NCBI GenBank assembly: GCA_003228875.1
Contig: QIGK01000051.1
Location: forward strand, 1 to 33,188
DNA from: Rhodobacterales bacterium
GTDB lineage: Bacteria; Pseudomonadota; Alphaproteobacteria; Rhodobacterales; Rhodobacteraceae
DNA: 33,188 bases
Direction: 5' to 3'
Part shown: positions 14,508 to 31,165 of the stretch, piece by piece
How positions within the stretch are numbered: the stretch's first letter is position 1
How the letters are laid out: each line of letters starts with the position of its first letter
Notes under the pieces: generated by a model
Databases searched by the model: none
What the model saw: only the letters and a program-made list of their open reading frames with translations
Told to the model about the DNA's origin: nothing
Translations under genes and position numbers: made by a program

Positions 14508-15394
14508 ATGACACGCCAATCTATGACAGGCTTTGCAACGTTGGACGGTGCGCGGGATTTGCTTAGCTGGCAATGGGAAGTTCGTTCAGTTAACGGCAAA
14601 GGACTGGATTTGCGGTTGCGACTGGCTGAAGGGCGCTGGAAAAGCCCATCCGGGCAAAAGCACCGGAATATATCGGGCGGGGCAATGTCTCGCTTAGCCT
14701 CAAGGTTAAGCAGCGCGCGGGGCAGGGGATTCCGCAGGTTAATGATGCGGTTTTGCAGGCTGTGATGCAGGCGGTCATACAAACCTATAAAGCGGCTGAG
14801 GAACAAGGCATCAAAACCCATCCGATCAGCGCGCCTGATGTTTTAGGCTTGCGCGGCGTGATGGAATACGGGATTGAGGAAAAAATTTCAGATGCCATAA
14901 TTACCGAGGTATCAGCGCAAATTCCTGAGGTTTTTGCCCTGTTTCAAGCGGCTCGGCAGTCTGAGGGGGCAGCTTTGTCACGAATATTAGCGGCGCAATT
15001 GGACCAGCTGGCTGTGTTAATCGACGCTGCGGCAATTTCGGCTGAGGCGCGGCTGGCAAAATCCGGCGATTTGCTGCGAAACAAAGTAAGCGCTTTGCTG
15101 GAGACCACGGAACTGGCAGATGAATCGCGATTGCAACAGGAATTGGCATTGTTGGCGGTCAAAGCGGATGTAACCGAAGAAATTGATCGCCTGAAGGCCC
15201 ATATAGATGCAGCGCGGCTATTGCTGGCCAACCCAACCCCTGTGGGGCGAAAATTTGATTTTTTAATGCAGGAATTTAACCGTGAGGCCAATACTTTGTG
15301 CGCTAAATCCGGCTCGGTTGAATTAACCGCGATTGGGCTTGACCTGAAAACAGGTATCGATCAAATGCGCGAACAAGTTCAGAATTTGGAGTAG
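14508..15394 (+). pseudogene. yicC: yicC, interrupted by a frameshift
   Basis: YicC is a conserved endoribonuclease-type protein involved in RNA turnover. Codons 1-42 from the ATG at 14508 give the family start (MTRQSMTGFA...VNGKGLDLRLRLAEG). Family sequence then continues in the frame one base earlier, from CTGGAAAAG at about 14635 (LEKPIRAKAPEYIGRGNVSLSL), to the stop at 15394. The break lies at the GGGCG near 14631-14635. One missing base would restore a protein of about 295 residues; from memory homologues have two or three more residues here, so a 7-base deletion also fits. It is followed directly by gmk. It could be a true lesion or a sequence error. Confidence 0.88.
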
Positions 15395-26659: not shown

Positions 26660-26677
26660 TACTTAAGTGTTTTAGTC
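26640..26677 (-). repeat. Pair of 13-bp direct repeats in the iron-gene promoter
   Basis: GACTAAAACACTT on the minus strand occurs at 26677-26665 and again at 26652-26640, 25 bp apart. The first copy overlaps the mazG stop codon and lies just upstream of the -35 box; the second fills the promoter spacer. They share the GACT core with the downstream palindrome, suggesting several binding sites for one regulator. Confidence 0.65.
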
Positions 26678-27508
26678 AGCAATATTCTGCTTCTCATTGG
26701 CTTTAACCGCATCCCACAAAGCATCCATTTCAGTTAGGGTTGATTGCGCCGGAGATTGGCCTTTTTTGGCTAATTCAGTTTCTATGGCATTGAATCTACG
26801 GGTGAATTTTTGGTTGGCTTTGCGCAAAGCAGTTTCTGGATCAACTTTCAAATGCCGCGCAAGATTAGCCATCACAAACATTAAATCACCAAATTCTTCT
26901 TCTACTTCGTCAATTGACAGTTGATTACGAGCCTCGACCAGCTCTGCGCTTTCCTCAATTATTTTATCCAGAACTTGCTCTGTTTCAGGCCAGTCAAACC
27001 CAACCCGTGCAGCGCGATTCTGCAATTTAATGGCGCGGGTCAGGGCGGGCAGGCCCAAGGCTATGCCATCCAGAACCGAAACTGCTTTTTTGTTTTTACG
27101 TTCCTTGGCTTTGATTTGTTCCCAGTCCACCACCTGTTGCTCTGCGGTTTTGTCGCGGCTTTCATCACCAAAAACATGCGGGTGGCGGTAGATCATTTTG
27201 TCGGAAATTAATTGCACCACATCGTCAAAATCAAAGGCCCCGATTTCGGTGGCCATTTGGGCATGATAGATGACATTCAGCAGCAAATCACCAAGTTCAC
27301 CGGGCAATTCATCCATGGCGTTACGTTCAATTGCGTCTGCGACCTCGTAAGCTTCTTCTATGGTATAAGGCGCGATGGACTTGAAATCCTGCTCAATATC
27401 CCAGGGGCAGCCGAATTGTCGGTCTCGTAACCGGCGCATTATTTCCAAAAGGCGGGGCAGGCCGCCATTTTCATCATGCACCAGCTTATCTGATTCGTCC
27501 TGATTCAT
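26672..27508 (-). CDS. mazG: Nucleoside triphosphate pyrophosphohydrolase MazG
   Basis: Hydrolyses (d)NTPs to monophosphates, cleaning nucleotide pools (278 residues). Two MazG domains are seen: the first with FGCPWD, TIEEAYEVADAIE (49-61) and ELPGELGDLLLNV (67-79), the second with IIEESAELVEA and EEFGDLMF. Metal-binding acidic clusters are intact. The ATG overlaps the P450 stop as ATGA, so its translation may depend on ribosomes reaching the end of that gene; the nonsense codon inside the P450 gene could reduce this. Confidence 0.95.
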   Translation of the reverse strand: MNQDESDKLVHDENGGLPRLLEIMRRLRDRQFGCPWDIEQDFKSIAPYTIEEAYEVADAIERNAMDELPGELGDLLLNVIYHAQMATEIGAFDFDDVVQLISDKMIYRHPHVFGDESRDKTAEQQVVDWEQIKAKERKNKKAVSVLDGIALGLPALTRAIKLQNRAARVGFDWPETEQVLDKIIEESAELVEARNQLSIDEVEEEFGDLMFVMANLARHLKVDPETALRKANQKFTRRFNAIETELAKKGQSPAQSTLTEMDALWDAVKANEKQNIAD

Positions 27509-28692
27509 ACCTGAACCATCAACTTTTCAAGGCCGTGAAAGTGATAACGGTTGGCATAAACCGGTTGTTCGGAAATTTCCAAGTCTGGGAATCGCTCAAA
27601 CAAAATTGGTAAAGCAATAGCCATTTCCAGTCGCGCCAACGGGGCGCCAATGCAAAAATGCAAGCCCGCGCCAAAGCCAAGCTGGCCAACGCCGCCACGA
27701 GCAACATCAAACTGATTAGGGTTTTCATAGCGCTCAGGGTCACGATTGGCCGCAGCAAGCATCAGGCCAACACTGTCACCGCGCTTAAAATCATGGTCAA
27801 AAACCCGCATGTCTTACAACGCGATACGGGTGAACATGTGCAAAGGCGGATCAAAACGGATGGTTTCATCAACCGCGCGTAAGGTGCTTTTTTCATCTTT
27901 GAAAAAGGAAATAGGCGGCTGACCGGTTTCCAGCAAAACCTTGACCGCGTTGGAAATACTATGAACGGTGGCTTCGTGACCGGCATTAAGTAAAAGAATA
28001 CAGGTTGTTATAAGTTCTTTTTCAGACAATTTTTCATCCTGATTTCGGGCTTTAATCAGGTGCGAAATTAGATCATTTTGCGGGTTTTTTTGGCGTTCGA
28101 GCATTAATTGCTGGATATAGTCAGAAAAAGCAAGGCTGGCGGTAACAGCGCGGTCTTCTATGTCGCGATCGCGGCGGGCTTGATACATGGCCACCATGTC
28201 ATGGCTCCAACGCAACAACTGAGGCCCCATGTCTTCGGGGACCCCAAGCATTCGGCAAATGATTATGACCGGAATATGTTCAGCAAAGTCTTTAATAAGA
28301 TCAAATGGTTGATCGTTAATCTTATCACAAAGAAGATGGCTGATTTGGTCAATTTCAAGGGCCAGATCATTAACGCGGCGGTTGGTGAATGTCCGCACCA
28401 GCAGGCTGTGAATTCGGGTATGTTTTGGGGGCTCCAACTCCAACAGGGAATGTTGTTCCAACGCGTAAAAAGATGCGAGATGTTCAGGCGTTTCAGCCTT
28501 TAGATCAGCGGGCATTTCACGACCGAACCTGCGGTCGCGCAACAGATCATTGACGGATGAAAAGCCCGTCGCACAAGGAATACTGTAATCATTCCAGTGG
28601 AATAGCGGGCCTTGTTCGCGTGCGATATCATAAAACGGATAGGGATTCTGGACAAAATCAGGGTCAAGCGGCGATTGGTCCAGCGATTTCAT
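27505..28692 (-). pseudogene. Cytochrome P450 with an in-frame nonsense codon
   Basis: The whole 396-codon frame encodes a bacterial class I P450. The N-terminal 292 residues contain the I-helix region (LLNAGHEATVH) and the ExxR motif (ETIR), then TAA at 27814-27816. The same frame continues without shift with DMRVFDHDFKRGDSVGL and the haem-binding FGAGLHFCIGAPLARLE. The usual residue at the stop is Glu (LEDM), so one change GAA to TAA explains it. The truncated product lacks the haem cysteine and would be inactive. A separate start at 27810 could give only the C-terminal fragment. Both ends keep ATGA overlaps with neighbours. Sequence error is possible. Confidence 0.92.
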
Positions 28693-29843
28693 CCAGCACG
28701 TTCCAACGCTTGTTCAATATCGGCAATCAGATCATCCGCGTCCTCAATACCGATGCTAAGGCGCAGCAATGTATCGGGCACAATCGAATTTGGCCCCTCA
28801 ACCTTGATGCGATGTTCAATCAGGCTTTCGACCCCGCCAAGCGATGTTGCGTTGATAAACACTTGCACAAAACGGCTAATATCATGGGCGGTTTGGCGGT
28901 TTTTCATCAACAAGGAAATCATGCCGCTAAAGCCGTTTTTCATCTGTTTACGGGCAATAGCATGGCCGGGATGTGATGGCAGGCCGGGGTAAATCACTTT
29001 GTCAATTTTAGGATGGTTTTCAAAATGTTGCGCGATCCGCAAAGCGTTCGACGAGGCCCGCTCATAACGCAAAAACAAGGTGCGGATGCCGCGCACCAAC
29101 AACCATGCCTCAAATGCTGCCATGACATTGCCGGTCAAGGTTCGGATGTTTTGCAGTTCAGCCCAAAATTCGTCGGCTTTGGCGCAGGTTAACACCCCTG
29201 CGGTAATATCGGAATGGCCGCCAAGATATTTGGTGGCGGATTGAAAAACCAGATCTGCGCCTAGCGAAAGCGCTTTTGTGGTGCAGGCAGGGGCAACAGT
29301 GCTGTCAACCACCAGTCTTGCGCCCACCGAATGCGTGATTTTGGCAGCCTCTGCAATATCAATCACATCCCAATTCGGGTTGATGGGCGATTCGATCCAG
29401 ACCAGTTTGGTTTCGGCACGCACAGCGTCTGACAGCGCGGCGGGCATTGTGGCATCAAACAGTGTGACCTTGACGCCGCGCGTTTGCTCGATATGCAACA
29501 ACCAGTTGATAACGCCATGATACATGACGTTGGGCGCAACAACATGGTCACCGGCGCGCAAGGTTTCCAAAACTGTAACAATTGCCGCCATGCCGGATGC
29601 AAAAACCATGGCGTCCTCGCCGCCGTCCAGATCGGCCAAAAGTGCCTCTGTGGTTTTGATGGTTGGGCCTCCGGAACGTGCATAGATATAGTCCTGCCGA
29701 CCCTCACCTTGATCATCGCGCGCATAAGTGGAAGAAAGCTCAATAGCTGGGGTCACCGCGCCGGTTTTCTCATCAATATGGCGAAGGGCTTGGGCTGCGC
29801 GGGTGGCCGGAGCCAATTTAAGCTGGCGCGGCGACCGATCCAT
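28689..29843 (-). CDS. PLP-dependent Cys/Met metabolism enzyme (cystathionine beta-lyase-like)
   Basis: A 384-residue member of the trans-sulfuration family (cystathionine gamma-synthase, beta- and gamma-lyases). The cofactor lysine is K205 in SATKYLGGH, D180 contacts the PLP ring, and YARSGGPT is at 55-61. ESPINPN and the C-terminal GxESLIEHR region are normal. Which reaction it catalyses cannot be decided from sequence; beta-lyase is the commonest label. It starts directly after the gpt stop (TAAATG) and overlaps the P450 start (ATGA). Confidence 0.88.
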   Translation of the reverse strand: MDRSPRQLKLAPATRAAQALRHIDEKTGAVTPAIELSSTYARDDQGEGRQDYIYARSGGPTIKTTEALLADLDGGEDAMVFASGMAAIVTVLETLRAGDHVVAPNVMYHGVINWLLHIEQTRGVKVTLFDATMPAALSDAVRAETKLVWIESPINPNWDVIDIAEAAKITHSVGARLVVDSTVAPACTTKALSLGADLVFQSATKYLGGHSDITAGVLTCAKADEFWAELQNIRTLTGNVMAAFEAWLLVRGIRTLFLRYERASSNALRIAQHFENHPKIDKVIYPGLPSHPGHAIARKQMKNGFSGMISLLMKNRQTAHDISRFVQVFINATSLGGVESLIEHRIKVEGPNSIVPDTLLRLSIGIEDADDLIADIEQALERAG

Positions 29844-30347
29844 TTAGTCGGTGCCTCGGTAGGGTTCAACATATTGCATCGCCATGTCCCACGGAAAGAA
29901 AATCCACGTATCTTGGGAAACTTCGGTGATAAAACTGTCGACCATCGGGCGGCCCATTGGTTTGGCATAAACCGTTGCAATATGGGCTTTGGGATATTTT
30001 TTCTTGACCACTTCAAGGGTTTTGCCGGTGTCCACCAGATCATCGACAATCAAAATCCCGGTTCCGTCGCCAATCAGGGCTGCGTCCGGTGATTTCAGCA
30101 CAATCGCTTCGGAGCGGGATTGGTCATCATAAGACTTAATGCTGATGGTATCGACGGTGCGAATATCCAATTCGCGCGCGATGATCATCGCTGGTGCCAT
30201 GCCGCCGCGCGTTATGGCAACAATGGCTTTCCATGTGCCGCCATCGGGGCCCATTTTTTCAAGTCGCCAAGCAAGCGCGCGGCTATCGCGGTGGATTTGG
30301 TCCCAAGATATATGGAACCCTTTTTCATGGGGAAGCTGGTCAGTCAT
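29844..30347 (-). CDS. gpt: Xanthine (xanthine-guanine) phosphoribosyltransferase
   Basis: Purine salvage enzyme (167 residues) making XMP or GMP from the base and PRPP. The PRPP-binding loop [13 protein letters not shown] is at 98-110, with [10 protein letters not shown] (44-53) forming the other pyrophosphate contact and WIFFPWD near the C-terminus at the base site, as in E. coli Gpt. It overlaps the fabI stop as ATGA and abuts the next gene, so it is inside a tight operon. Confidence 0.94.
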
Positions 30348-31165
30348 TCTTTTTTTCCTGTGACTACATCAATGTCAGGGGCGTCTTCGGCTTTCATGCC
30401 GACTACATGATATCCGCAATCAACATGGTGGTTTTCGCCGGTAACGCCGCTGGAAAGGTCTGACAGCAGATACATTGCCGATTTGCCCACATCATCGGTC
30501 GTAACATTGCGCCGCAACGGTGAATTCAGTTCATTCCATTTCAGGATATACCGAAAATCACCAATGCCGCTGGCGGCAAGCGTTTTAATTGGCCCAGCAG
30601 AAAGGGAATTTACCCGAATATTTTTTGGCCCCAAATCCATGGCCATGTAACGCACCGAGGCCTCTAACCCGGCCTTGGCGACACCCATGACGTTATAACG
30701 GGGCATAACCCGCTCTGCGCCAAAATAAGTAAGCGTCAAGCAGGCGCCGCCATCGGGCATCATTTTTTCGGCCCGTTGCACCACAGCAGTAAACGAATAA
30801 ACTGAAATATCCATGGTCATGGCGAAATTTGCCGCGCTGGTGTCTACGTAACGGCCGCGCAACTCGTTTTTGTCCGAAAATCCAATGGCATGGACCAAAA
30901 AATCCAGCTTGCCCCATTTTTCTTCCAGTTCAGCGAAAACCGCGTCAATCGAATCGCTATCGGTTACGTCACATGGCAGAACGATGTCAGCGTTAATGGA
31001 TGCGGCCAGCGGTTTAACCCGTTTGCCAAGCGCATCACCCTGATAAGTAAACGCCAGTTCGGCACCTTGTTCATGGCACATGCGGGCAATCCCCCATGCG
31101 ATGGATTTATTGTTTGCGACGCCCATTATAAGGCCACGCTTTCCACTCATTAGTCCCGAGCCCAT
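30344..31165 (-). CDS. fabI: Enoyl-[acyl-carrier-protein] reductase (NADH)
   Basis: Last reductive step of fatty-acid elongation (273 residues). Atypical SDR motifs of FabI are present: [11 protein letters not shown] (15-25), [12 protein letters not shown], catalytic Y147 and Y157 with K164 ([19 protein letters not shown]), and the [12 protein letters not shown] substrate loop. The ATG at 31165 has AAGGG 8 nt upstream, so I keep it over the ATG at 31150. First gene of the compact fabI-gpt-PLP enzyme-P450-mazG run, divergent from pdxH. Confidence 0.95.

Follow-up and report, generated by a model that had tools for sequence, protein, structure and literature searches.

A cytochrome P450 gene probably inactivated by a recent nonsense mutation within an operon-like gene run of a Rhodobacterales bacterium

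A cytochrome P450 gene of a Rhodobacterales bacterium is interrupted by one in-frame stop codon (Table 1). This is probably a real nonsense mutation that recently inactivated the gene, in a lineage from which dispensable genes are disappearing; I give this reading about three chances in four. The window, that is, the whole stretch of DNA that was analysed, is an entire contig (C42) of 33,188 nucleotides from a draft genome (2.61 Mb, 146 contigs, 90.4% complete). A single nonsense change, most likely of a Gln codon to TAA, would have occurred after the split from the nearest sampled relative. Translation would then end at residue 292, ahead of the haem-ligating cysteine, and no working enzyme would be made, while the remainder of the gene would be without visible decay as yet. 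The operon is presumably still transcribed, with mazG made from its own start codon, and this genome would be losing several genes, P450 among them.

Table 1. Positions of the P450 pieces, their neighbours and the other broken genes. Positions without a locus prefix are those of the window.
Feature	Position	Strand	Remarks
P450 5′ piece	27814..28692	-	292 codons and the premature TAA; I-helix motif AGHEAT and ExxR motif ETIR
Premature TAA	27814..27816	-	Codon 293 of the P450 frame
P450 3′ piece	27505..27810	-	101-residue ORF with ATG three bases past the TAA; haem-cysteine motif FGAGLHFCIG
mazG, nucleoside triphosphate pyrophosphohydrolase	26672..27508	-	NF007113, 350.6 bits (cut-off 208); 4-base overlap with the P450 end
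Cys/Met-metabolism PLP enzyme, cystathionine lyase/synthase type	28689..29843	-	PF01053; 4-base overlap with the P450 start
Xanthine phosphoribosyltransferase gene	29844..30347	-	NF006613, 238.7 bits (cut-off 138); upstream, same run
Short-chain dehydrogenase gene, enoyl-ACP-reductase type	30344..31165	-	Upstream, same run
yicC, second broken gene	14517..15394	+	7-base deletion near 14633-14640 shifts the frame
DAO/GCV_T oxidoreductase	L162:1147-3189 (G000 contig 13)		Lacks 89 and 26 residues; TAA
Universal stress protein (Usp) gene	L150:11747-12151 (contig 1)		Lacks a start; TAG
AtuA-family gene	L155:12980-14322 (contig 6)		Frameshift

The P450 frame runs on the minus strand from the ATG at 28692 to the TGA at 27505. 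When it is read through, 292 open codons precede the internal TAA and 102 follow it before the terminal TGA. The Pfam p450 model (PF00067) matches each piece separately (E 9.8e-08, 31.6 bits, and 8.1e-13, 48.4 bits), and both pieces exceed the curated cut-off of 22.8 bits; no NCBIfam P450 model matched at or above its cut-off. The stop lies inside unbroken homology, residues 1-393 aligning with the nearest relative at 81%. Thus, the original prediction of a single nonsense codon in a P450 frame that is open on both sides was borne out. Three further P450 genes are present in the same genome, and no stop was reported in them.

Both the ExxR motif and the haem-cysteine signature FxxGxxxCxG are present in the read-through frame. 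AGHEAT (residues 237-242) and ETIR (residues 276-279), which I take to be the I-helix and ExxR motifs, lie N-terminal of the stop. FGAGLHFCIG, presumably the haem-cysteine motif, occupies residues 340-349 of the read-through frame downstream of the TAA, and the Cys codon itself (27654-27652) is in the lost part, as had been predicted. No single continuous frame includes the haem cysteine, owing to the TAA at codon 293. Since the haem-cysteine motif is located past the stop, the 292-residue product should be unable to bind haem normally.

Is the stop codon shared by related bacteria? In 119 homologous loci with scores of 300 bits or more (111 distinct sequences; some loci are one place present in two collections), the matched frame is free of stops. 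Among the matches listed in a genus search (12 of 13 genomes at E <=0.001, the own genome counted) and in a family search (240 of 295 genomes at 1e-40 or better), the stop was found in the window alone. The comparison for which the original prediction had called thus revealed no relative sharing the TAA, and the lesion is private among the relatives seen. A disabling change relative to intact orthologs, one mark of a pseudogene, is present.

At the position of the stop, 110 non-redundant homologs have E (91), Q (7), D (5), A (3), or M, K, S and R (one each). Glu had been predicted at this position, and it is indeed the residue of the family majority, but Gln stands there in the two closest homologs. 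These come from the Rhodobacteraceae metagenome-assembled genomes JALSGU010000012.1 (L065, 81% identity) and JAESRG010000069.1 (L116, 73%), and both have the codon CAA, one base from TAA. The window sequence forms a clade with them (support 100/99) in a tree of the best 45 of 112 rows. Because both nearest sequences read CAA, the ancestral codon most likely encoded Gln and not Glu. A single base change explains the stop, as had been proposed, and one transition in a Gln codon would be the most economical history.

The P450 gene is joined to both neighbours by intact ATGA overlaps of four bases, in agreement with the original prediction. The lyase stop codon (28691-28689) overlaps with the P450 ATG (28692-28690), and the stop codon ending the P450 frame (27507-27505) overlaps with the mazG ATG (27508-27506). 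For the PLP enzyme, no NCBIfam model was above its cut-off among those shown. In a set of 33 hand-picked loci, a lyase match lies directly upstream of the P450 gene in 18, and mazG lies no more than 60 bases downstream in 12. Seven loci of this set belong to the genus; all seven have the lyase upstream, and six have mazG close downstream. The placement of the lyase and mazG in relatives thus indicates that the operon-like layout, P450 included, is inherited in place. A foreign or misplaced P450 fragment was ruled out, as the lyase and mazG flank P450 in relatives too. At L065:1947-3233 (minus strand), an oppositely oriented M20-peptidase gene separates P450 and mazG, which are adjacent in the window and in six of the seven genus loci.

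The age of the lesion was assessed from the substitutions on each branch, with L065 as the sister, L116 as the outgroup and P450 codon 293 excluded. On the window branch, changes at codon positions 1, 2 and 3 number 29:18:59 in P450 and 26:15:44 in the intact mazG (p 0.66). This pattern indicates that selection constrained the P450 protein over most of the period since the two lineages parted, and its resemblance to that of intact mazG makes the lesion look young. The recent, strain-specific loss that was one option in the original prediction is thus consistent with both the substitutions and the absence of the stop from relatives. At 128 positions conserved in at least 90% of the sequences, the window departs at seven and L065 at six, five departures being common to both. 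A long-dead gene was ruled out by the codon-position counts together with these departures.

There is also a hint that P450 may have been less constrained already before the stop arose. The end branch of the P450 protein is 0.21 for the window versus 0.09 for L065. The ratio of amino-acid to third-position changes is 27:59 on the window branch and 14:64 on the other branch (p 0.05, one of four tests). Set against the three neighbours together, which have 40 and 37 amino-acid changes, the 27 and 14 changes of P450 do not differ significantly (p 0.17). Ahead of the stop, the window departs at six of 95 conserved positions, where the mean is 2.6 and 12 of the 110 other sequences reach six; most of these six departures are common to the intact L065 gene.

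The chief rival of a genuine young nonsense pseudogene is a base-call or assembly error, according to which the organism carries an intact P450 gene and the TAA arose as a mistake of the consensus. I consider this unlikely but worth serious weight. The lesion concerns a single base, there is little decay around the TAA, and a draft genome in 146 contigs with 90% completeness is of uncertain quality, all of which would fit an error. The condition of other genes in the same genome counts against it. In yicC, the N-terminal family domain is divided over two frames, the first part being out of frame with the rest, and in BLASTN alignments with each of the two nearest relatives a net 7-base gap falls at one and the same site. 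The yicC domain is unbroken in three of six other genomes searched and was not found in the remaining three. Since it was not found in those three, yicC may be dispensable in this group.

A survey for further lesions took the window and the initial 20 kb of each of contigs 1-20 of this genome (G000), 433 kb altogether, and set them against 2.0 Mb from a family member whose sequence is a single contig (G105). At least five genes were broken among the 216 frames tested, some of which were antisense; about 2% broken is a rough rate, as the sample was non-random and included the window precisely because of its lesion. The survey gave 36 flagged rows representing 11 genes, six of which were dropped because the reference frame was antisense or had a spurious upstream part, as judged partly by eye. 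These were the flags in L156 (hydantoinase), L164 (CPSase), L155:17221-18084 (SMC), L150:7714-8241, L159:2415-2825 and L155:9291-10240 (response regulator). In the reverse test, none of 232 G000 frames was broken in the G105 DNA after the same check, and each of four flagged rows (three places) was fully covered by one open frame. This survey superseded a preliminary one, which had many false flags from antisense frames and lacked P450 and yicC in its list. When the 26 stop flags of the preliminary survey were rechecked, one open frame was found to span most of the intervals. Apart from the lesions already named, four intervals (L150:13029-13877, L150:19102-19998, L160:5025-6187 and L160:10505-11089) were less well covered, and five broken genes is therefore a minimum.

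Besides P450 and yicC, the broken genes are those of the oxidoreductase, Usp and AtuA (Table 1). Unbroken copies exist in three, six and four, respectively, of six genus relatives, where only matches of more than 60% were counted for the oxidoreductase and AtuA. The 7-base deletion in yicC, the two losses of residues accompanied by a stop in the oxidoreductase, and the startless Usp gene with its stop are not base-call errors. Base calling would hardly produce multi-residue losses together with stops, and these point to what seems to be real gene decay in this genome. Still, the other lesions could partly arise by misassembly, and the P450 lesion and the AtuA frameshift could each be an error when taken singly.

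Where several alleles coexist, a draft consensus may represent just one of them. The TAA might thus be present in part of the population and have been caught by the consensus, P450 being a trait that is present or absent within the species. The lesion looks young, which suits such a polymorphism, but one genome of the species was examined, and I give this reading a small chance.

Could the two pieces still be of use to the cell? Translation might stop at the TAA and restart at the in-frame ATG just beyond it (27810-27808), with the pieces assembling into an enzyme that works or is regulated; alternatively, read-through of the TAA might occur at a useful rate. PMC12548453 presents reinitiation as one of two models for the coupling of neighbouring genes, and PMC7918605 reports that many bacteria have genes in which purifying selection continues despite an in-frame stop, the phenomenon being widespread. 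There is also little decay in either piece, but a young lesion predicts the same. The break is absent from every homolog seen, which gives no sign of selection for it, and no Shine-Dalgarno-like run was recognised by eye ahead of the ATG. Moreover, 19 of the 31 window genes end in TAA as their normal stop, which argues against useful read-through and rules out a reassigned stop or a general TAA suppressor. I therefore regard a two-piece or read-through enzyme as very improbable. Likewise very improbable is a naturally split P450 whose two chains assemble around the haem, the stop being a control of dosage rather than a lesion.

Because the stop is absent from every relative seen, nothing favours a function for it. 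A recent inactivation by a nonsense mutation remains my preferred reading. Ribosomes might restart at the ATG three bases beyond the TAA, but nothing supports such a restart. If they did restart there, they would produce the 101-residue C-terminal piece and keep moving towards mazG, and this would perhaps help mazG translation.

Taken alone, the P450 lesion is one more young bacterial pseudogene and represents ordinary gene loss. When yicC and the other three broken genes are considered with it, the lineage seems to be losing peripheral functions. Automated annotation may show two short P450 genes at this locus. No literature on P450 pseudogenes of Rhodobacteraceae or on P450 with mazG in Roseobacter was found, which carries little weight.

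Among known structures, the best PDB matches of the P450 are 8yhn (residues 7-394, 276 bits) and CYP164A2 3r9b (residues 8-393, 236 bits), with moderate similarity only. The P450s of L065 and L116 are much closer, resembling the window gene over nearly its full length and likewise lying next to a PLP lyase gene. They differ from it in having no stop and Gln in place of the TAA, and L065 differs further in the M20-peptidase gene on the other strand between P450 and mazG. Bacterial pseudogenes with a single nonsense change likewise have one stop in an otherwise intact frame, have intact relatives and are confined to one genome. Nothing notable distinguishes the window P450 from such typical cases, and it would represent an early stage of them.
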